Origin: Deltaproteobacteria bacterium
GTDB taxonomy: Bacteria; Desulfobacterota; Dissulfuribacteria; Dissulfuribacterales; QOAL01
Length of the DNA stretch: 37,926 nucleotides
Assembly (NCBI GenBank): GCA_015489365.1
Contig: WFZW01000176.1
Span: 1 to 37,926, forward strand
Direction of reading: 5' to 3'
Shown here: in pieces, positions 764 to 34,689 of the stretch
Layout of the letters: every line of letters starts with the position of its first letter
Numbering within the stretch: position 1 is the first letter of the stretch
The notes under the pieces: model-generated
Seen by the model: only the letters and a program-made list of their open reading frames with translations
What the model was told of the DNA's origin: nothing
The model's database searches: none
Translations under genes and position numbers: made by a program

Positions 764-1540
764 TTACTGAACGCAACCCTGTACTATAGCCGAAAAACTT
801 GCAGCTTCAAGGGAAGCCCCTCCCACAAGTACACCGTCTACATCCGGCAGCATCATGAGACTTGCTATGTTGTCCGGTTTAACGGAGCCACCATACAATA
901 TTCGAATTTGGTCTGCAATACCGGAATCATATCTGGACTTAAGCCAGTTACGCATAAATTCATGTGCTTCCTGGGCCTGTTCCGGGCTTGCAGTCTTACC
1001 CGTCCCTATGGCCCATACGGGTTCATAGGCAAGGATCACCCTGGTGATCTGTTGAGGGGTTACATTGTCAAGGCCTCCGTTCAACTGAAAGTCAAGAATC
1101 CTAGTGGTCAAATCATCTTCTCTCTCCTCAAGGGTCTCACCTATACACAAGATGGGGCTCAATCCATGATCTAATGCGGATTTCATCTTCTGGGCAATCA
1201 AGGGATTGTCCTCTCCAAAGATATGCCTTCGCTCTGAATGCCCGAGAATAACATATCTTGCCCCTACCTCTTTTAACATGACAGGGGAAATCTCCCCTGT
1301 GTACGCCCCCTGCTCGGCATAGTGCATATTCTGTCCAGCTATCGATACGATATCACTTAGCTCGGCAATTGCGTCACTGGCCTCCTTCAATGCGGTAAAC
1401 GGAGGCGCTATTATTATCTCACATCCAGTGATACCATCTATTTCAGGCAGAAACCCCTTGAAGAAGTCCCTGGTTTCATCAATGGTCTTATGCATCTTCC
1501 AATTGGCAGCGCATACCGGGACACGACCTTTATCAACCAT
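764..1540 (-). CDS. tpiA: Triosephosphate isomerase
   Basis: Interconverts dihydroxyacetone phosphate and glyceraldehyde 3-phosphate. With the start at 1540 the protein has 258 residues, normal for the family. Visible signatures are NWKMHK near the N-terminus (residues 13-18), the electrophile His101 in ILGHSERR, the catalytic Glu173 in AYEPVWAIGTG, and the phosphate-binding GGSVKPDN and GVLVGGASL near the C-terminus. The reading frame is open 21 codons further upstream, to 1603, but that would overlap pgk. The ATG at 1540 has GGAGG five bases upstream and gives the family-like N-terminus, so it is preferred. It lies 34 bp after pgk and is clearly in the same operon. Confidence 0.97.
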   Translation of the reverse strand: MVDKGRVPVCAANWKMHKTIDETRDFFKGFLPEIDGITGCEIIIAPPFTALKEASDAIAELSDIVSIAGQNMHYAEQGAYTGEISPVMLKEVGARYVILGHSERRHIFGEDNPLIAQKMKSALDHGLSPILCIGETLEEREDDLTTRILDFQLNGGLDNVTPQQITRVILAYEPVWAIGTGKTASPEQAQEAHEFMRNWLKSRYDSGIADQIRILYGGSVKPDNIASLMMLPDVDGVLVGGASLEAASFSAIVQGCVQ

Positions 1541-1574
1541 AAGCGCCTCCTTTTCCCTTAAGCCATTTTTACCC

Positions 1575-2771
1575 TTAATGTATCTTGGTGCCGCATCTCT
1601 CAAGTGCCTCTATCCCAGGCAATTCCTTACCCTCCAAGAGCCTTAAGAAGGCCCCCCCACCTGTGGACATATATGAAACGTTATCCTTTTCCCCTGCCAT
1701 AGCCACTGCATGGTCAGTATCGCCGCCCCCTATGATACTCAAGGCATTGCTTTGCCCAACGGCATGTGCCAGGGCCTTTGTGCCTCCACTGAAGGCCTCT
1801 ACCTCGAAGGCCCCCATAGGACCATTCCATACAATAGTTGCCACGTCACGCAACGCCTCCTCAAACAGGGTGATGCTGGCTGGCCCGATATCAAGGGCCA
1901 TTTTGCCCTCTGGGATCTCCTGGCAGGTCACGGCCTCGACAGGAGAATTGGGTCCTAGTTCATCGGCAACAAGGCAGTCAACCGGCAGGTAAAACTTCAC
2001 GCCTCTTTTTGTCGCCAAGGCCATTATGCCCCTGGCGGTGTCCAGTAGATCATCCTCCATTAGGGACCTACCAACATCAAGCCCTGAGGCTGCAAGGAAT
2101 GTATTGGCCATGGCACCACCTATAATAAGCTTGTCTACCTTTCGTAATATGTTCTCTATTGCACCAAGCTTGCTGGAGACCTTGGCCCCCCCAAGTATCG
2201 CAACCAGAGGCCTTGCAGGGTTTTCCATGGCCTTGTTGAAGTAGGACAATTCCTTTTTAAGAAGGAGACCTGCTCCGCATTCCTTTACAAATTCGGGCAC
2301 ACCCACAACCGATGCATGGGCCCTGTGCGACACCGCAAAGGCATCATTGATATAGACATCGGCAAGGGTGGCAAGCTCCTCTGCAAATCCGGGATCATTG
2401 GCCTGTTCCTCTGGATGATACCTGAGATTCTCTAGCAGGATGCACCCACCCGGCTTCATTGTCTCCACCAATGTCCTCACCTGCTCACCCACACAATCCG
2501 GGGCAAGTGGAACATCCATGTTAAGGATTTCTCCCAGAAGGGTTGCTACCGGTCTAAGGCTGTACCTGGGATCCTTTTTTCCCTTGGGTCTACCAAGATG
2601 TGAGCACAGAATCAGCATGGCACCTGAATCCACAGCATATTTTACGCTTGGAATAGCAGCCCTCACGCGATTATCATCGGTAACGTTTCCCTTATCATCC
2701 AGAGGAACGTTGAAATCCACCCTCATCAAGACCCTTTTACCGGCCAGAGAGAGCTCGTCAATAAATCTCAT
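1575..2771 (-). CDS. pgk: Phosphoglycerate kinase
   Basis: Catalyses 1,3-bisphosphoglycerate + ADP to 3-phosphoglycerate + ATP, the substrate-level phosphorylation step after GAPDH. The protein has 398 residues, typical length. Signatures are RVDFNVPLDDKG near residues 17-28, SHLGRPKG for 3-PGA binding, ENLRYHPEE, LGGAKVSSKL at the domain hinge, WNGPMGAFE, and the C-terminal nucleotide loop GGGDTDHAVA with STGGGAFL. The ATG has an excellent AGGAGG ribosome binding site (2777-2788 region). The gene lies 180 bp downstream of the divergent GAPDH and 34 bp before tpiA. No anomalies are seen. Confidence 0.97.
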   Translation of the reverse strand: MRFIDELSLAGKRVLMRVDFNVPLDDKGNVTDDNRVRAAIPSVKYAVDSGAMLILCSHLGRPKGKKDPRYSLRPVATLLGEILNMDVPLAPDCVGEQVRTLVETMKPGGCILLENLRYHPEEQANDPGFAEELATLADVYINDAFAVSHRAHASVVGVPEFVKECGAGLLLKKELSYFNKAMENPARPLVAILGGAKVSSKLGAIENILRKVDKLIIGGAMANTFLAASGLDVGRSLMEDDLLDTARGIMALATKRGVKFYLPVDCLVADELGPNSPVEAVTCQEIPEGKMALDIGPASITLFEEALRDVATIVWNGPMGAFEVEAFSGGTKALAHAVGQSNALSIIGGGDTDHAVAMAGEKDNVSYMSTGGGAFLRLLEGKELPGIEALERCGTKIH

Positions 2772-2950: not shown

Positions 2951-4219
2951 TCAGAGCATTGAATCGGCCACAGAGACGATCCTATCCCCAAGCATATTGG
3001 TATAGCTACCCAGTTCGTTGTCATACCATCCATAGACCACCACCTGGGTGACTGGTATCTTTATCAATTCACAGGTCATATTTTCCAATGCGCCACCACC
3101 TTCTAACGTACAGGCCAGACGAGGATCCACGTTTATCACCGCTGTCCGGGTGTGGGTCTCGGTACCTTCAATGATACTGGCAGCAGCAGGCACACCTATT
3201 ATGTCGGAGGAGACGTGTTGCTCCTCTGTGAATATGAGGTGATCACTCATGGGGCCCTCTGCAGCCCTCTGATAGATGCTGTTTATCAATTGGCGATTGA
3301 CAGGCTTTTCCAGGCTTTCATCCTGGATGGTCATGACAAGAACTATCAGGGAACCGGTATTGGTGGGGATCCGCACGGATTCAGCAATGAAACCGATATT
3401 TTTCATCTCCGGGATAACCAGGCCGAGTGCCTGGGCAGCCCCTGTGGTTGTGAGGATGATGTTGTTTATTATGCTGCGGTTTTTCCGCAAATCCTTTGCC
3501 CCTGCCTTCGGAAGACGGTCTAGTACCACCTGGCTGCCGGTTGCGGCATGTACTGTCACCATGGATGCCGAAAGGATCCTATTGGCCCCAAAATGATCCA
3601 GCAAAGGCTTGACCATGTAGGCCAAACAGGTAGTAGTGCATGAAGCCGCCGATATTAAGACATGCCTTTCAGGGATATAATCGTCTTCATTGATTCCCAT
3701 TACCGTGGTGACCGCATCCTCTGGCATCCCCGCAGCCTTGTCTTTAAACTTAAAGGGGGCTGAGAGAATCACCTTCTCCGCCCCTGCCTCTATGTGCCCT
3801 CTAAGGCTTCCCTTCGGATCATCACCAGGGGCTATAGGATCCCTGAACACACCCGTTGTATCCACAACCAGCCTTACATCATGGGCAGCCCAGTCAATCC
3901 CCTTTGGATCACGGCTCTGCCTTAGTATCGTCACGGGTATCCCGTCTATCAACATCGTACCCTTGTCCTCATCCAGATTCTCAATAACCCTTGGACACCT
4001 ATGGCCATAAAGATAGGCGCCAAGTCTTCCATAGGTACTGTCCTTTTCAATCGCCGCGGCCATATCCTGAAGGCCAGAGCCCACTTGTCTTCCTATGTTG
4101 ATGACGATTTCCTTGAAGGTACGCCTACTGACATGGTGCCACAGGCTGAGCTTACCGATCCTGCCAAGGCCATTGATACCTAATTTCATTGGGCGTGGTT
4201 GTTCTCCTGCTGTTACCAT
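2951..4219 (-). CDS. Divergent glyceraldehyde-3-phosphate dehydrogenase paralogue
   Basis: This is a second GAPDH-family protein of 422 residues, longer than the usual ~335. It has the Rossmann start KLGINGLGRIGKLSL (residues 12-26), the active-site motif SAASCTTTCLA with catalytic Cys194 (canonical [11 protein letters not shown]), TVHAATGSQ, RIPTNTGS and the C-terminal YGWYDNELGSYTNML. After the second beta strand the usual acidic NDL loop is replaced by NIGRQVG. That loop sets NAD against NADP preference, so coenzyme use may differ (inference). Extra sequence follows residue 40 and flanks residues 125-140. The ATG at 4219 has GGAGG six bases upstream; an internal ATG at 4189 is weaker. It sits between the dikinase-like gene and pgk, so a triose-phosphate or related aldehyde substrate is likely, but direction and coenzyme cannot be read from sequence. 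Confidence 0.88.
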   Translation of the reverse strand: MVTAGEQPRPMKLGINGLGRIGKLSLWHHVSRRTFKEIVINIGRQVGSGLQDMAAAIEKDSTYGRLGAYLYGHRCPRVIENLDEDKGTMLIDGIPVTILRQSRDPKGIDWAAHDVRLVVDTTGVFRDPIAPGDDPKGSLRGHIEAGAEKVILSAPFKFKDKAAGMPEDAVTTVMGINEDDYIPERHVLISAASCTTTCLAYMVKPLLDHFGANRILSASMVTVHAATGSQVVLDRLPKAGAKDLRKNRSIINNIILTTTGAAQALGLVIPEMKNIGFIAESVRIPTNTGSLIVLVMTIQDESLEKPVNRQLINSIYQRAAEGPMSDHLIFTEEQHVSSDIIGVPAAASIIEGTETHTRTAVINVDPRLACTLEGGGALENMTCELIKIPVTQVVVYGWYDNELGSYTNMLGDRIVSVADSML

Positions 4220-4521: not shown

Positions 4522-7500
4522 TCATATCAATGATGCGTTCTCCTCAACCTTTGTAGGATGACGCCCCTTGTAAACCGACCCGTTGCGCCCATCTATACTT
4601 AGAAAGTCACCGGAACGAATTATAATCCCTTGGATCTTTGCCATGTTTCTATTTTCATATACCTGTAGCTGATCGCAGCCTACCACGCAGGTCTTATCCA
4701 ACCTGAATGCCACAATGGCTGCATGGGAGGTCTGGCCACCCTTGGCGGTCAAGAGACCATCAGCAGCGGAAATTTCCCGGATATCATCGGGCACCGTGTC
4801 CGAGCGTATTAATATGAGATTTTCACCAGGCTCCTTCTTTCTCATAAGTTCGATTTCCTCAAGTGTAAAGACCGCCTTGCCGGACAGGGCCCCACCGCTT
4901 ACACCAATACCTCGGGAAAGGTAACTTGCCTCCAGTTCATGGGATGGAACAAAGACATTTATCGTCCCCCGCTTCTTCGTGGTCATATCCCTGCTCTGAA
5001 GTATAAAAAGTTTGTCTTCCTCCGGCCCTTCGAAGGTGAACTCGATCTCCTGGGGGGTCCACCTTTTTTTATATATCAAGTGCTTAGTGTACGATAAGAG
5101 CGCATTATATATGTGGGGGAACCTCTCTTCCATGCTAAGATCCGCATCAAGCCCCAATGCCTCCTTCTGCTCTATGGAAATAGGATGGGTCGAAACGAGT
5201 CCGCTTACGATATCTTCGCCCTGATTGCCAGACGTGTAATCACCCCAAAGACATACGCGATCGAGCTTCCGATATGGATTGGCCGTAAAAACCACGCCGG
5301 TACCAGATGACTCGGATAGATTACCGTAACTCATGGACTGGACTATCACTGCCGTACCCCAATTGTCTGAAATTTCCATAATTTCCCTGTAGGCCTTGGC
5401 CTTTTCTGAATTCCATGAGCCGATCACCAGACGTATGGAAACCAACAACTGCTCAAACGGATCCTCCTCTAGCGCAATGCCTTTTTCCATTACAGCATCC
5501 CGATATGCAAGTGCCAGCTCCTTCATCTGCATCCCTGTAAATTCCCTTTTTTGCTTAACCTTGTAGAGCCTCTTGTGGGAACGCATGAGTTCTGTAAAGA
5601 CATCACGACTAAGACCAAACGACATGGCCCAAGACTGGATAAACCGTCTGTAATTATCCCAGGCAAACCACTCGTTGCCGCTCTTCGTGGCAAGGCCCTT
5701 GATTGTATCCATATTACTACCCACATTGATGATGGTAGACATCATTCCAGGCATGGATATGGCTGCACCGCTTCTGACCGATAACAGGAGTGGATTGTCT
5801 GGGTTACCGAACTTTCTGCCGGTCCGGGTCTCTATCTCCCTCAAGCCCCGCCTCAACTGTCTACAAAAGTCCCTGTATGCACTGGGGAGTTTTTGAAACA
5901 GGGAATAATACCTGTACACCTCGGTTGTCACTATTATACCAGGGGGAACGGGCAAGCCTTCCTCGGCCAAAAGAACCAGGTTAAACCCCTTGTTCCCAAG
6001 CTGTATCATGTTCCTGGTCCGTTTCTTGGGCCTGTGGACAGAACACAGGTCCTGAGCTGGATCATAGCTCAACAACAGGTCCACCTCCTCGGGGTTCAAG
6101 AGTTCCTTTTGTTCCCGGAGCACCTGATAGACCCTACCAATGAAGTTGTCCAGATGCTGAAGCCCGAATGTGGAGGAGATAAGTTCCCTAAGAAAACGCT
6201 CGGTCACCTGGTGGAACAGATGGGTGTCCAAGACACGGGCATGATTCCCGGACACATATTTCGGCAACAGTTGGCCAGGCCCCAACTGGCGTATAATCTT
6301 GGCCAGATTATCCTGGTGGGGGCTCAGGTAGTAGACATAGATCATGTCCTTGACCCCCTCTGAAAGCCCCTTCACGATATCGAGATACTGGGAAAAGGAA
6401 AAACGTCTTACCCCAAGGGACTTTTCCAGCAATGTAAGATAGGTTGAAAATTTCTTCGAATATACGCCGTTAAGCTGAACGGCCCTCCAGAAGAGTTTGA
6501 GGCCCTTAAGGATATTTACAAAGGTAGTCTTTGTTATAAATGGCACCTCCGTCTCGGCGATAAGCCTTTCGAAATAGACGTTGGCAAGGTTTTCAAGGCG
6601 AAATGTCAGCCCCAGGGCATCAAATTTCCTTTCATGGTAATGCCCATACATGGAGGGAATATCTGCGGCAATATGCCGCTTGTGGTATATGTCTTCCTTG
6701 ACCTCGAAGGTTTCCTTACTGAGGATTATGTCCTTTAACTTCTCAAGTTCCTTTAGGATTACATCGAGGCAATACCCTGGCTTGTCCGTTTCAATCGCTG
6801 CAAGTACCTTTTCAAGCCCTTCAAAACCGAGTTTCTTGGCCTCCTCCAGGTGATGCCGGATCTCCTGGGTACCCAATTTGTATTTCATGGTCTCCAGGCT
6901 GTACATCTTGATCAACAACTCTAGCCGGCGTCTTTCATAGGGAGGAACATCGCTCACCTGCGCGAGTATCTGCGAAAGCTCCTCCTCTGGCATGTTCAGC
7001 AACCTATCAAGGTTATGCGCAAACGGCTCCAGCCCCAAGACCTGAGCCAAATGCCTTACTAGTTTATGGACATGATCCACATAGGGCCCTTGGATAGGTA
7101 TCTGCTCCAGTATTTCAGGGGCCAGAAACGGCCTGAGTCCTTCCTTTTGTTTGCTGTACCAGAAACACAGGATGGCCTCGATAAAATCGACTATCAGGTT
7201 GTTGCTCTCGACATGGCTTTGCTTTCTCAAAAAGTGGATGAGTATATCCCTCCTGTGGGATATCTCATCTAGTTCCGTGGATACATCCCGCAGAAGCCCC
7301 TCTGCACCTATCTCATTGTAATATACCGGAAGAACCTTGGTGAATTGTTTGACAAGGTTGTAGATTGGCCCTATATCGCAATTTAAGAGCCTGCTGATAT
7401 CCCTTTGGAACAGATCAGTATCCTTTATACATGTGCCGGCAAGCTTGAGATTTATAATCAATGCAGACAGCAAGGTGCTACAGACCTTGGGTTTCTGGCA

Positions 7501-8823
7501 TACCAGGTTCAACCACACCCTTATGTTCTGGAGATGGGCTGGGTTACACAGTATATGCCATTCGGTATCTACTCCCCTTACACCTGGTGTCTGAAAACCA
7601 AAATCCACCACCAGATCCAGGAACAACTCTATGAGCCTGGTATTGTTCCTGCTGAAGATCTCAAGCCCCAGGGTCTCTATGCACTGGAGAGCGGTCCTGG
7701 GAAAGTGTCCAACCTGCTGTTTGAGCAAAACAAAGCTTCTGGCCAACACCTCCTGGAGCTGTTCAAGATCTGCAGTCCTGATAAGGCAAACCAGATTGCG
7801 GTTGATCTGGCGAAGCACCTCTTCATGGATCTTTGCAAGCCCTTCCATTTCCACCAGATGGAAAAGAAAAAGGAGATGAAGCCCTACCTCATCCCCTGAT
7901 GTATTGGAATTTTCGGAGACCACTGCCGGGGATTTGCAGGATATCCGACCAAGCGCAAGGGCAATCTCCTTGTAACTCCTTACGATATCCAGGTAGCCTG
8001 GAAGATTCGAAATCTCGAGCGCTGTCTCTTCATCAAGGGGCCTGCCAGAAAACCTGTGCAGCTCTTCGAGGTATCCCTGCAACTGGCTATGTGAGACTGG
8101 TTTCAATAGCTCCCTTACAGCGCGCAACTCTTCCCTGGAAGTTCGAAGGGCATATTGTCCCTTTACCCTTTCCAACCATGCCAAAGGATCCTCAAGACCC
8201 AACCAATATCGGTAGGAGACCTCCCGAACGGTCATAAGGATACGACATGCTGTCTCCCAAAAACCTGAAGGCACATCGTGACCTGATAACCTGCTGGAAA
8301 CCTTCTTGATTATCCTGGCCAGCGGATGGAAGCTTGTAGCCAATGCCTGACATACGGTATCGTCAACCGTGTTGAGTTGCCTGAAGATATCCTCTATCGC
8401 AGGAAGGAGGCTTACCAGCTTTTTCGTTCCAATGGATTGAACAACCTTTTCGATAAAGGCAAGAAGACCGTCTGCTGCCTGTACCTTCTGTGCCTCCTGC
8501 GGGGCTTCATATATCACCCCTAGAAAGGTTTCCATCAAAACCTTTATGGCCTCAACCCCTGTGGGGGAACGCTGATAGGTTGCCAGGTTCTTTAGGGCAA
8601 ACGACCTGAGTTCCGGTATAACCACATCCCAGTTCCTGAATGGATGGTGTAATTCGAAGAGGAGATGATCTGCCTGTTTCAACACGCCCTGGTAGTCCGC
8701 TACCGCATTCCTTAAGACATCGAACCTGGGATCGATTTCTATCTGATCCACCGCGGTGACCGCAAGATTTACCTTGAGGGCCTTTGATTTTTCTAACATC
8801 TTTAGATCGTTATGTCTGATCAA
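4522..8823 (-). CDS. PPDK-like dikinase lacking the PEP-binding barrel, with ~930-residue N-terminal region
   Basis: This is a 1,433-residue protein. Residues about 940-1290 form a PPDK/PEP-synthase-type ATP-grasp domain, with LGNKGFNLVLLAEEGLPVP (about 942), LLLSVRSGAAISMPGMMST (about 1010-1028), SGTGVVFTANP (about 1173) and EIEFTFEG. The phosphohistidine swivelling domain follows, with catalytic His1367 in AKGGQTSHAAIVAF. The chain ends about 65 residues later, so the C-terminal PEP/pyruvate TIM barrel of PPDK is missing. Residues 1-930 are Leu-rich and probably largely helical; I recognise no known domain there. Families of this design pass phosphate from ATP via His to another acceptor (glucan dikinases, rifampicin phosphotransferase); the acceptor here is unknown. 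It lies 12 bp downstream of gap, in a glycolytic operon. The start is TTG with no good ribosome site; an ATG eight codons in is the alternative. Confidence 0.85.
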   Translation of the reverse strand: MIRHNDLKMLEKSKALKVNLAVTAVDQIEIDPRFDVLRNAVADYQGVLKQADHLLFELHHPFRNWDVVIPELRSFALKNLATYQRSPTGVEAIKVLMETFLGVIYEAPQEAQKVQAADGLLAFIEKVVQSIGTKKLVSLLPAIEDIFRQLNTVDDTVCQALATSFHPLARIIKKVSSRLSGHDVPSGFWETACRILMTVREVSYRYWLGLEDPLAWLERVKGQYALRTSREELRAVRELLKPVSHSQLQGYLEELHRFSGRPLDEETALEISNLPGYLDIVRSYKEIALALGRISCKSPAVVSENSNTSGDEVGLHLLFLFHLVEMEGLAKIHEEVLRQINRNLVCLIRTADLEQLQEVLARSFVLLKQQVGHFPRTALQCIETLGLEIFSRNNTRLIELFLDLVVDFGFQTPGVRGVDTEWHILCNPAHLQNIRVWLNLVCQKPKVCSTLLSALIINLKLAGTCIKDTDLFQRDISRLLNCDIGPIYNLVKQFTKVLPVYYNEIGAEGLLRDVSTELDEISHRRDILIHFLRKQSHVESNNLIVDFIEAILCFWYSKQKEGLRPFLAPEILEQIPIQGPYVDHVHKLVRHLAQVLGLEPFAHNLDRLLNMPEEELSQILAQVSDVPPYERRRLELLIKMYSLETMKYKLGTQEIRHHLEEAKKLGFEGLEKVLAAIETDKPGYCLDVILKELEKLKDIILSKETFEVKEDIYHKRHIAADIPSMYGHYHERKFDALGLTFRLENLANVYFERLIAETEVPFITKTTFVNILKGLKLFWRAVQLNGVYSKKFSTYLTLLEKSLGVRRFSFSQYLDIVKGLSEGVKDMIYVYYLSPHQDNLAKIIRQLGPGQLLPKYVSGNHARVLDTHLFHQVTERFLRELISSTFGLQHLDNFIGRVYQVLREQKELLNPEEVDLLLSYDPAQDLCSVHRPKKRTRNMIQLGNKGFNLVLLAEEGLPVPPGIIVTTEVYRYYSLFQKLPSAYRDFCRQLRRGLREIETRTGRKFGNPDNPLLLSVRSGAAISMPGMMSTIINVGSNMDTIKGLATKSGNEWFAWDNYRRFIQSWAMSFGLSRDVFTELMRSHKRLYKVKQKREFTGMQMKELALAYRDAVMEKGIALEEDPFEQLLVSIRLVIGSWNSEKAKAYREIMEISDNWGTAVIVQSMSYGNLSESSGTGVVFTANPYRKLDRVCLWGDYTSGNQGEDIVSGLVSTHPISIEQKEALGLDADLSMEERFPHIYNALLSYTKHLIYKKRWTPQEIEFTFEGPEEDKLFILQSRDMTTKKRGTINVFVPSHELEASYLSRGIGVSGGALSGKAVFTLEEIELMRKKEPGENLILIRSDTVPDDIREISAADGLLTAKGGQTSHAAIVAFRLDKTCVVGCDQLQVYENRNMAKIQGIIIRSGDFLSIDGRNGSVYKGRHPTKVEENASLI

Positions 8824-8835
8824 CCAGCAATGGCA

Positions 8836-9846
<1,011 letters not shown>

Positions 9847-29277: not shown

Positions 29278-30822
29278 CTAGAAGAAATACTGGTACATCA
29301 CCCGGAAACGCCAATCATCTTGGGTCTTATCATCAAACTGATCCGGGGTCATACCAACCGCTGCAGCCTCTGATGCCGAGGCGTCATCGGTATTTCTCTG
29401 CATCAATGCCGCATCGATGGTAATGTATTGGTTAAATCCATGGAAGTAGTGGTTTATACCCACAATGAATTGTTGTAGATTTTCTTCTACGCCATATTTT
29501 CCATTGGAAAATTCGACCAGCTTCAGGCCACTTTCCATGGAATTAAGTGGATCATTGTCATACAGCCTTGCCAGGTAGGCGTACTTGAAGACCGCCTCCC
29601 ACTTCTTGGGCACAAAGAAATATCCAAGGTTCACCCTCATACCCCAACGGTCCCAGGTCTGCTCCATATTCAGTGCGTTTCCATCGGGATCTTGAATGAA
29701 TTCCTCCCATGCCCACTCCAGGTCTGCAGAAAAGCCTATATAGCGGAACAAGATCGCCACATCAAAACCATAGTTATTTATGTCGTGGATACCATTAAGC
29801 AGGCTACCGCTACTGTTATAATAGTTCTTCTCCCTGTCCTTGGTCCAAAATCCTGAAAAAACAGTGGCAAGTGCCGGTGTGGTATTGTAACCCATGTCAC
29901 CCTGCATGAAATAGTTATTGAAGGTTTTTGGGCCCATAGGACCAGTTGGATCCGAACCTGGAAGAAGGTTCAGGCCCACCCTGAAACTATATAACTTGTC
30001 ATCGCTGTTTACATCATTGTAACCCTGCGTGTCACGCCCATTGAACAGACCGAGCCAGTAACACATAAACTGCTTTTGCCCAAACATGTCCAACTCTCCG
30101 TTTACTACAATGCCCTGGGATCTGTAATTGAGCAAGCCTCCTATAGGGAAACCATTTTTAAGAAGATGGCCGCCGACCTTGAGATCAGGGGTTCCGCCCC
30201 CTGGCCAGTATTTTTCACTGTCGTCGGTAAAGATCGTACGGTCAGTTCCATTCTGCTTGAAGCCGCTTTGCCAGAACTCCAAGCCCAATCCCGGAATCTT
30301 CATGCGGCCGAATTGTACCCGGGCATACCTATATTTCTTCCAGACTACAAAGGCATCATGGACATTTACCTTGCTCTTTGGTTCAAGTTGAATCTGGATG
30401 AAGTACTTCCAATCCTTGTTTGGAGCGCTACCATCCACGAAGAGCCTGAGACGCCGCATGGTGAAACTACTGTAATTTTCATCTGCCCCAGCGATGTCAT
30501 CGTCCCTGTTAAGATAGGTATAACGCAGCTGGATACCGCTTCTTAACCGCATCTTGTACTGGTTCCCAGTTTTTGGATTCGTATATTCAAACCTGAAGCC
30601 GTTCTTCCAGTATACCTTCGACTGCTGAGGGGCCGGAGCCGCCGCCTCCTTTTTCTCCAACTGATCTATTCTTTCCATTAAGACCTGAACCTGGGCCTTT
30701 AATGCCCTGACTTCATCCTCTGTAGTGGATGCGCCAGCCGGCCTGGTAAAGACCAGGCACCATATAAACACGGCTGCCAAGCCCCACAAAAATAAGGAAC
30801 TACCCCTCGAAATGTGCCTCAT
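29278..30822 (-). CDS. Phosphate-selective-type porin (OprO/OprP family)
   Basis: An outer membrane beta-barrel of 514 residues from the ATG at 30822, chosen because GGAGG lies six bases upstream; longer frames to 30885 lack this. A signal peptide (LFLWGLAAVFIWCLVF, cleavage near AGA-S) is followed by a short coiled coil (VRALKAQVQVLMERIDQLEK) and then barrel strands such as MRLRSGIQLRYTY, RRLRLFVDGSAPN, YFIQIQLEPKS and YARVQFGRMKIPG. The chain ends in a Phe (VMYQYFF), the signal for barrel assembly. Family members in many anaerobes are not phosphate-specific, so I leave substrate open. An operator-like palindrome sits in its promoter. Confidence 0.9.
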   Translation of the reverse strand: MRHISRGSSLFLWGLAAVFIWCLVFTRPAGASTTEDEVRALKAQVQVLMERIDQLEKKEAAAPAPQQSKVYWKNGFRFEYTNPKTGNQYKMRLRSGIQLRYTYLNRDDDIAGADENYSSFTMRRLRLFVDGSAPNKDWKYFIQIQLEPKSKVNVHDAFVVWKKYRYARVQFGRMKIPGLGLEFWQSGFKQNGTDRTIFTDDSEKYWPGGGTPDLKVGGHLLKNGFPIGGLLNYRSQGIVVNGELDMFGQKQFMCYWLGLFNGRDTQGYNDVNSDDKLYSFRVGLNLLPGSDPTGPMGPKTFNNYFMQGDMGYNTTPALATVFSGFWTKDREKNYYNSSGSLLNGIHDINNYGFDVAILFRYIGFSADLEWAWEEFIQDPDGNALNMEQTWDRWGMRVNLGYFFVPKKWEAVFKYAYLARLYDNDPLNSMESGLKLVEFSNGKYGVEENLQQFIVGINHYFHGFNQYITIDAALMQRNTDDASASEAAAVGMTPDQFDDKTQDDWRFRVMYQYFF

Positions 30823-30850
30823 AAGCGCCCTCCTTTTTGGGAAAAGGTTT

Positions 30851-30864
30851 GTTAAAAAATTAAC
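30851..30864. promoter_or_regulatory. GTTAA-TTAAC inverted repeat in the porin leader
   Basis: GTTAA (30851-30855) and TTAAC (30860-30864) flank AAAA. The palindrome lies about 30 bp upstream of the porin ATG, inside the predicted leader. It could be an AT-rich operator or chance in a T/A-rich leader; short arms make it weak. Confidence 0.3.
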
Positions 30865-30898
30865 AACATACTGTAAGCACAACAAAAAACTTGAAAGT

Positions 30899-31048: not shown

Positions 31049-31564
31049 TTACACGATGGCCTGCCTCATCCCCTTTGGAAACCTTGATAGGAGACGTCCT
31101 GGCAAAAGATAAAGGGAAACACCCCATATGTTTTTCCCAGAACGTACGATTACATATCCAGGATCGATATCCAGATCGACGTCTATCTCCCCATCGCTTA
31201 AAAGCCTTTTCATGCCAAGGGGTTCAAGGTCAACTACGTTTTTATCGGCCAGATCACCAAAACGCTGAACCATTACTGTAGTGGGCTTAAGGTAAAGACC
31301 TGTCCTTCTCACGAAGGGAAGGCCGCAACGCATGACCTTGAGGCCTGCATTCTCATAAACCCTCCCCTTCCTGACAAGATAGATGACCCTGGAGGACCCT
31401 AAGAGGTGGTACGGAATAAAGGCGGCAGGAGGGATACCAAAACGTCTTTCTAGATAGGCAAGGATATCACGGCGTTCAGGTAGGTCTAAGAATCTTGGCC
31501 ACGAAGAATCCCACTGAATCAATCTTGTGGGGGTAGAATCTCCGGCACAATACGCAGGATTCAT
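31049..31564 (-). CDS. Protein with RsmF C-terminal-like (PUA-adjacent) domain, overlapping the methyltransferase
   Basis: A 171-residue ORF whose residues about 35-171 resemble the C-terminal RNA-recognition part of RsmF/NOP2-type methyltransferases: YLERRFGIPPAAFIPYHLL, RVIYLVRKGRVYENAGLKV, LKPTTVMVQRFGDLA and a basic end. Its first 30 codons lie inside the methyltransferase gene in another frame, with an 89-bp overlap. The ATG at 31564 has GGGGAG eight bases upstream, so separate translation is supported. It may be a split of an originally fused protein, a frameshift, or a natural stand-alone partner of the methyltransferase. Confidence 0.75.
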   Translation of the reverse strand: MNPAYCAGDSTPTRLIQWDSSWPRFLDLPERRDILAYLERRFGIPPAAFIPYHLLGSSRVIYLVRKGRVYENAGLKVMRCGLPFVRRTGLYLKPTTVMVQRFGDLADKNVVDLEPLGMKRLLSDGEIDVDLDIDPGYVIVRSGKNIWGVSLYLLPGRLLSRFPKGMRQAIV

Positions 31565-34083: not shown

Positions 34084-34689
34084 ATGCAAAACAAAGCAGG
34101 GATGCCCCCAAAACCTTCCATTCAAAACGATCTCCTTGGAGGTAAGCACCTCCATGACCCGGTTCCTTCCGGGGATGAACTTCCCATTCATGTCAAGATA
34201 GAAAGTGCATATCGCCTCTTTAACCGGATTGAACAAGAATTGCGATCTGACAAGGAGTTTTCAAGACTCCTTAAAGACTATGAAAGATCCATTGAGCTGA
34301 GTCAAAGGATCATGAGAGAACTGAAATTGGACCGGGATTGCGCATTTTGTGCAACACAAGTACCTGGCGGAGGCTGTTGCGGCAGGGGTATAGAGGATTG
34401 GTACGATATCTATACATTGCTATTAAACCTGTTTCTAGGTACTGCTATCCCCACGAAACGTCTTGACCCCAATGACTGCCTCTTTCTCGGGCCTAGTGGC
34501 TGCAAGCTCAGGGCACGATTTCATTTCTGTGTAAACTACCTGTGTCCCAGGATAACAAAACGCCTCAATCCCCAGGAGTTGCTAGAACTGACAACCCAAT
34601 CCGGGGCGGAACTCTTTTTGGCATGGCGACTAGAAAGCATATTGAGGATAAAAACGGATACCTCTACCCTTAAGACTTGCCTCGAATAG
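34084..34689 (+). CDS. Nine-cysteine protein of unknown function
   Basis: A 201-residue protein I cannot name. Residues 40-85 look like a helix (IESAYRLFNRIEQELRSD). Then come Cys86 and Cys89 (DCAFCATQ), Cys98 and Cys99 (GGGCCGRGIEDWYD), Cys132 (NDCLFLG), Cys140 (SGCKLRARF), Cys149 (FCVNYLC) and Cys154, and a last Cys199. The spaced Cys set, with conserved-looking FLGPSGCKLRARFHFC, suggests a metal- or Fe-S-binding site related in style to YkgJ-type clusters, but I cannot prove it. The start is uncertain: an ATG at 34084 or 34102, neither with a good ribosome site. The preceding 200 bp hold no gene I support. Confidence 0.7.
   Translation: MQNKAGMPPKPSIQNDLLGGKHLHDPVPSGDELPIHVKIESAYRLFNRIEQELRSDKEFSRLLKDYERSIELSQRIMRELKLDRDCAFCATQVPGGGCCGRGIEDWYDIYTLLLNLFLGTAIPTKRLDPNDCLFLGPSGCKLRARFHFCVNYLCPRITKRLNPQELLELTTQSGAELFLAWRLESILRIKTDTSTLKTCLE

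Follow-up and report, generated by a model that had tools for sequence, protein, structure and literature searches.

A barrel-less relative of pyruvate phosphate dikinase is paired with a divergent GAPDH across Desulfobacterota

A dikinase gene between two GAPDH genes

We analyzed contig WFZW01000176.1 from a deltaproteobacterium of the order Dissulfuribacterales (GenBank assembly GCA_015489365.1); "the window" means this whole stretch of 37,926 nucleotides. On its minus strand, between two genes for glyceraldehyde-3-phosphate dehydrogenase (GAPDH) at 8836-9843 and 2951-4219, as an initial annotation made from the sequence had reported, lies a gene for a relative of pyruvate phosphate dikinase (PPDK). 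The protein has the ATP-grasp and phosphohistidine domains of PPDK, no phosphoenolpyruvate (PEP)/pyruvate TIM barrel, and a long N-terminal region. We call this barrel-less, PPDK-like dikinase PPDKL. Its features, all on the minus strand, are as follows.

4522..8799, minus: PPDKL, barrel-less PPDK-like dikinase, 1425 amino acids from the ATG (open frame, Pfam, homologue alignment)
5974..8799, minus: N-terminal alpha-solenoid region, residues 9-950 (Pfam, PDB sequence search, structure model, Foldseek)
7165..7611, minus: conserved block 1, residues ~405-553, GFQ.P..GVD.EWH..NPAH.QN...HFLRKQSHVESN, candidate acceptor site (homologue conservation)
6529..6711, minus: conserved block 2, residues ~705-765, predicted beta-hairpin KRHIA.DIPSMYG.Y.E.KFDALGL.FRLE, candidate acceptor site (conservation and model)
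5134..6000, minus: PPDK_N ATP-grasp domain, residues 942-1230 (Pfam, PDB sequence match, homologue alignment, model superposition)
4579..4824, minus: phosphohistidine swivel domain, residues 1334-1415, with His1367 in TSHAA (Pfam, homologue alignment, model superposition)

Residues are numbered throughout with the TTG codon at 8823 as residue 1; counted from this codon, the open frame (4522-8823, minus strand) has 1433 codons. The likely start is the ATG at 8799 (residue 9, MLEKSKAL...), 8 codons 3' of the TTG: homologues align from this ATG (MLEKSKALKVNL in the window), and relatives start with M.ESKAL..NL.

Nothing beyond the absent barrel favors the explanation that PPDKL is a truncated or decaying PPDK, whether through sequencing error or as a pseudogene. 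Orthologues from the same order have equal length and the same C-terminal end, most genomes of the order have a full-length copy that is more than 50% identical, and every one of the 45 good genomes among 60 relatives had a match. Compared to a 92%-identical congener, there were 101, 56, and 452 differences at the first, second, and third codon positions, which points to clear purifying selection. The initial annotation had raised the possibility of a barrel encoded in another frame or lost to a sequencing error; we found no lost barrel, and the next gene is GAP2, one of the two GAPDHs. That many genomes share this length and C-terminal end, and that purifying selection is strong, rules out a decaying PPDK, whose probability we put close to nil.

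Using a profile of the PPDKL N-terminus, we surveyed 395 Desulfobacterota genomes, as well as plasmids, and found full-length copies, or copies that were split or cut by a contig end, in 115 of the genomes (this count sets aside distant homologues in two genomes, G345 and G415). The arrangement of solenoid, ATP-grasp, and phosphohistidine domains is common to homologues in more than 100 Desulfobacterota genomes. One single-contig genome encodes the PPDKL N-terminus in two frames (G109:C1:682941-685647), with a break near residue 610, between conserved blocks 1 and 2; this is either a fission or a frameshift.

The phosphoryl donor half

Pfam places PPDK_N at residues 942-1230 (E = 1e-29) and the PEP-utilizers phosphohistidine domain at residues 1334-1415 (E = 1.1e-17), in agreement with the ATP-grasp domain and the phosphohistidine (His1367) that had been proposed from the sequence. 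The catalytic histidine, in the motif TSHAA, is present in all 56 homologues that cover the site, and the solved structures nearest to PPDKL are PPDKs (E = 1.3e-79). In the ATP-grasp domain, K945, R1017, R1060, Q1162, G1176, and D1204 are conserved, as are E1261, Q1276, and R1278, which lie shortly after the end of the Pfam match. We mapped PPDK numbering from an alignment to the PPDK structure, adjusting the register around D321-R337 manually to fit the motifs. By this numbering, K22, R92, R135, G254, D280, E323, Q335, and R337 are invariant in homologues; Q240, D321 (as Glu), and E279 (Glu or Asp) are nearly invariant; and T253 is Thr, Ser, or Ala. In PPDK, these positions have catalytic or donor-site roles. 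Also, a predicted structure of residues 398-1433, with a predicted local distance difference test score (pLDDT) of 85.6, superposes on PPDK (PDB 1kbl) with a root-mean-square deviation of 3.0 Å over 547 columns. These results support an intact phosphoryl donor half of the PPDK type.

The chain continues for 66 residues after His1367, close to the ~65 that had been estimated. The PEP/pyruvate TIM barrel (PF02896) is absent from PPDKL, according to Pfam, and from the family, since the aligned homologues that reach the C-terminus stop 58-88 residues past the histidine.

We considered whether PPDKL replaces PEP synthase and rejected this: of 54 carrier genomes tested, 53 encode separate PF02896 barrel enzymes, mostly including one of the size of PEP synthase or PPDK, so PEP formation is covered in the carriers. 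The window's genome encodes two separate PEP synthase-like proteins. In one single-contig carrier (G059), there is no PF02896 protein and hence, by that model, no PEP synthase, PPDK, or enzyme I.

The predicted N-terminal solenoid

The initial annotation had described an unmatched N-terminus of ~930 residues, and apart from a slight correction in size (~933 if the ATG start is used), this description stands: there was no significant sequence match in the PDB, in Pfam (nothing in residues 1-935), or in plasmids. Structure prediction, which had been proposed along with homology searches of residues 1-930, gave an alpha-solenoid with one long beta-hairpin for residues 9-950 (pLDDT 83). A Foldseek search with this model returned only generic matches of the HEAT/karyopherin type, with template modeling scores of 0.1-0.17, and no specific fold.

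Within the solenoid, two stretches, residues ~405-553 and ~705-765, match the ATP-grasp domain in their degree of conservation; their invariant residues include Arg, Lys, His, Glu, and Tyr. We infer that these two blocks form the acceptor site. Because the donor half seems intact, the barrel is missing throughout the family, and the N-terminus is unmatched, it is natural to read PPDKL as having a changed acceptor, as had been argued from the loss of the barrel.

GAP2 and its partnership with PPDKL

The genes around PPDKL encode enzymes of lower glycolysis, including phosphoglycerate kinase (PGK).

2951..4219, minus: GAP2, divergent 422-amino-acid GAPDH, constant partner of PPDKL (Pfam, NCBIfam, alignment, co-occurrence)
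8836..9843, minus: GAP1, ordinary type I GAPDH, upstream; a cluster neighbor in the order, not a constant partner (Pfam, NCBIfam, gene order)
1575..2771, minus: PGK, after GAP2 (Pfam, gene order)
764..1603, minus: triosephosphate isomerase (TIM), end of the GAP1-PPDKL-GAP2-PGK-TIM cluster (Pfam, gene order)

GAP2 has the features of a type I GAPDH: the GAPDH domains, catalytic Cys194 and His224, and the phosphate-site Ser/Thr and the Arg of RIPT. It is a divergent member, with family-specific insertions and a score of 328.4 bits against TIGR01534, which is below the cut-off of 367.2. Where ordinary GAPDH has an Asp after beta2, GAP2 has Gly-Arg, a change that suggests a preference for NADP. 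GAP2 probably carries out the GAPDH step, because in three genomes (G073, G109, and G265) it is the sole PF02800 GAPDH, and no type II GAPDH was found in those genomes either.

We tabulated barrel-less homologues and their neighbors, as the initial annotation had recommended, in more than 100 genomes, and GAP2 emerged as the constant partner. Across the 395 Desulfobacterota genomes, 114 have both PPDKL and GAP2, one has PPDKL only, two have GAP2 only, and 278 have neither. All three genomes with a single partner are incomplete assemblies (76% complete for the PPDKL-only genome; 79% and 62% for the GAP2-only genomes). The two genes are adjacent, within 9 kb, in 89 of the 114 genomes with the pair, and two single-contig genomes keep them more than 2 Mb apart. 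In Desulfobacterales relatives, whose PPDKL is 40-43% identical, GAP2 alone still adjoins PPDKL in most cases. Where GAP2 is away from PPDKL, most of the families we inspected keep GAP2-PGK-TIM together. GAP1 is missing from some genomes that retain the pair (e.g., L137). Thus, of the suggestion that the two flanking GAPDH genes hint at the acceptor, the part concerning GAP2 survives and points to the triose-phosphate level, while GAP1 is not a constant partner. We found nothing that points to the other acceptor suggested, a glucan or another form of stored carbon.

One family (f2) has a second PPDKL with GAP2. In the respective trees, both of these branch with Desulfobacterales, and the native PPDKL is still flanked by GAP1 and PGK, with no GAP2 of its own (loci L078-L085 and L015-L026): f2 gained the second PPDKL and GAP2 together by horizontal transfer from a Desulfobacterales-like source. 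The unlinked pairs and this co-transfer are stronger arguments for pairing than the co-occurrence statistic (Fisher's test, which ignores shared ancestry and whose value is not to be taken as a probability). Overall, the partnership of PPDKL with GAP2 is well supported.

The partnership might instead mean that PPDKL acts on GAP2 itself: the solenoid would dock GAP2 and the phosphohistidine domain would modify or regulate it, giving a protein kinase-like control of GAPDH by ATP/AMP/phosphate status. The predicted all-helical solenoid resembles HEAT-type protein-binding scaffolds, the family-specific insertions of GAP2 could serve for docking, and the two proteins co-occur almost perfectly whether or not their genes are linked. 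However, invariant charged residues are numerous in the two N-terminal blocks and are packed into short stretches, a pattern that resembles an active site more than an extended docking surface. In addition, one of the two PPDKLs of family f2 neighbors GAP1 and PGK and lacks a GAP2 of its own. We consider this explanation, a main rival of the one proposed below, rather unlikely.

Two further observations concern copies of these genes. Dissulfurimicrobium hydrothermale has a second GAP2-PGK copy (G023:C1:505467-507924) whose profile scores are identical to those of the first, apparently a recent duplication. The distant homologues in G345 and G415 (L120:6861-11327 and L121:5737-10383) are 26-27% identical to PPDKL, with frames of 1489 and 1549 amino acids and the same solenoid/ATP-grasp/phosphohistidine architecture. 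Those genomes do not contain GAP2, and the gene adjoins a GAF-type sigma-54 activator; these homologues probably form a second subfamily with another role.

The locus at the level of the order runs rpoN-hpf-ptsN-rapZ-EIIAman and then GAP1-PPDKL-GAP2-PGK-TIM. This order of genes, along with the relationship of PPDKL's phosphohistidine domain to that of enzyme I, raises the possibility that PPDKL is an ATP-driven phosphoryl donor to the regulatory phosphotransferase system (EIIA-man and PtsN) in place of enzyme I. But HPr and enzyme I exist in the window's genome, where an enzyme I-sized barrel protein is encoded next to HPr, away from PPDKL, so we rejected the replacement of enzyme I. Also, PPDKL-GAP2 persists in some genomes of family f39 whose only remaining PF02896 protein has the size of a PEP synthase and whose locus no longer contains EIIA-man or PtsN (L137). 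By Pfam, PPDKL differs from enzyme I in lacking both the HPr-binding N-terminal domain and the PEP barrel. A role as phosphoryl donor to this system is very improbable.

A possible route from 3-phosphoglycerate

We propose that PPDKL belongs to a distinct dikinase subfamily that acts with GAP2, and that its acceptor is most likely the carboxylate of 3-phosphoglycerate, forming 1,3-bisphosphoglycerate; we put this forward as a tentative reading. First, going by domain similarity and the conserved residues, ATP bound in the ATP-grasp domain would phosphorylate His1367 with release of AMP, and as in PPDK, the co-substrate would probably be phosphate and the other product pyrophosphate. Second, the swivel domain would carry the phosphoryl group to the candidate site in the solenoid (blocks 405-553 and 705-765) instead of a PEP/pyruvate barrel. 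Third, 3-phosphoglycerate would be converted to 1,3-bisphosphoglycerate; it is favored as the acceptor because GAP2's substrate is the acyl phosphate of 3-phosphoglycerate. Fourth, GAP2 would reduce 1,3-bisphosphoglycerate to glyceraldehyde-3-phosphate. PPDKL and GAP2, which their co-occurrence suggests are an obligate pair, would then be an AMP-forming, gluconeogenic counterpart of PGK and GAPDH. It is possible but somewhat doubtful that many anaerobic Desulfobacterota contain an undescribed pair of this kind: a dikinase with a solenoid that activates 3-phosphoglycerate and releases AMP, and a GAPDH dedicated to reducing the product to glyceraldehyde-3-phosphate.

Several points weigh against this proposal. 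Each of the 80 carrier genomes checked for PGK encodes it, so no genome forces PPDKL to make 1,3-bisphosphoglycerate; with no PGK-less carriers (0 of 80), we rejected the idea that PPDKL replaces PGK. Part of the co-occurrence reflects shared ancestry, which raises the counts. Neither structural matches (Foldseek) nor sequence matches (PDB, Pfam) identified the acceptor, and a 930-residue alpha-solenoid is a large domain for binding a three-carbon acid and would fit a protein partner as well.

The link to GAP2 does not fix the exact metabolite, and PPDKL might be a dikinase for another small acceptor near GAP2 in metabolism, such as glycerate, glyceraldehyde, dihydroxyacetone, or a tetrose derivative. 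Rifampin phosphotransferase is a precedent, as replacement of the acceptor half changed its substrate (PMC4844700). However, GAP2 is the sole GAPDH in some genomes and sits with PGK and TIM, which favors the standard triose node; another small acceptor seems unlikely, if credible.

PPDK reactions are reversible, and PPDKL could in principle run toward ATP: 1,3-bisphosphoglycerate from GAP2 would phosphorylate the histidine, and the AMP and pyrophosphate of sulfate activation would be salvaged as ATP. AprA, which releases AMP, is enriched among the carriers (84 of 115). But in the other 31 carriers, nothing matched AprA at the chosen cut-off, so PPDKL is not tied to sulfate activation, and we consider the ATP-forming direction improbable. 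A link to sulfate respiration was likewise rejected, as AprA overlaps only partly with PPDKL.

Comparison with known dikinases

PPDKL shares with PPDK (TIGR01828, PDB 1kbl) the ATP-grasp and swivel domains, their order, and the donor-site residues, with 32% identity in the structural alignment. It differs in lacking the PF02896 barrel and in having the ~930-residue solenoid, and it scores 391.7 bits against a TIGR01828 cut-off of 843.45. Similarly, the ATP-grasp and phosphohistidine domains of PEP synthase (TIGR01418) are related to those of PPDKL, but PPDKL is barrel-less and scores 78.6 bits against a cut-off of 739.75. Glucan, water dikinases and their relatives (GWD/PWD) use the same donor chemistry and have starch-binding domains, with the phosphohistidine domain before the nucleotide domain; PPDKL has the opposite domain order and no carbohydrate-binding Pfam match.

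In rifampin phosphotransferase (RPH), the barrel is replaced by a new acceptor domain and the phosphohistidine domain is C-terminal (PMC4844700). RPH and PPDKL thus both combine a PPDK donor half with a new acceptor half. However, the acceptor domain of RPH is unrelated and lies between the ATP-grasp and phosphohistidine domains, whereas the candidate acceptor region of PPDKL precedes the ATP-grasp domain, and PPDKL scores just 30.1 bits against the curated RPH cut-off of 999. HpeHI, a two-component hydroxyphenylethanone kinase (PMC12167813), is a related kinase with a non-pyruvate acceptor, and PPDKL has a weak Foldseek match to HpeI (PDB 9goj; E = 4e-4). But HpeHI consists of two separate components, and no solenoid was found in it.

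D. hydrothermale LGS26_08520, which lies between two GAPDH genes, is listed as a PEP synthase (PMC8780430). It appears to be the PPDKL orthologue (matched by gene order, not by a sequence record), and the label is probably a misannotation. A PPDK-like gene of Desulfovibrio (DVU0246/Dde_0604; PMC4001038) lies in another gene context than PPDKL. A literature search, with most subscription journals outside its scope, found no study of PPDKL. In the literature searched, we did not find the acceptor domain, its place before the ATP-grasp domain, or the partnership with a GAPDH; the logic of joining the donor half to a new acceptor is already known from RPH (PMC4844700).

PPDKL is present in about 30% of the sampled Desulfobacterota and is annotated as PEP synthase in at least one genome; metabolic models that assign PEP synthesis to it are likely wrong. 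Lower glycolysis and gluconeogenesis are regarded as well mapped. The variant GAPDH to which PPDKL appears to be linked is the only GAPDH encoded in some complete genomes. If our proposal is correct, PPDKL would be a new type of enzyme at the node of 3-phosphoglycerate, 1,3-bisphosphoglycerate, and glyceraldehyde-3-phosphate, which is usually assigned to PGK and GAPDH. Whatever it phosphorylates, PPDKL is a widespread dikinase with a new kind of putative acceptor domain.

Other features

Elsewhere in the window, three long frames, at 29278-30885 (minus), 31049-31564 (minus), and 34084-34689 (plus), have no significant Pfam match; only 29278-30885 has a weak, sub-threshold one. The window's genome also contains a third GAPDH (G000:C162:2843-3313), which lies beside a PEP synthase-like gene.

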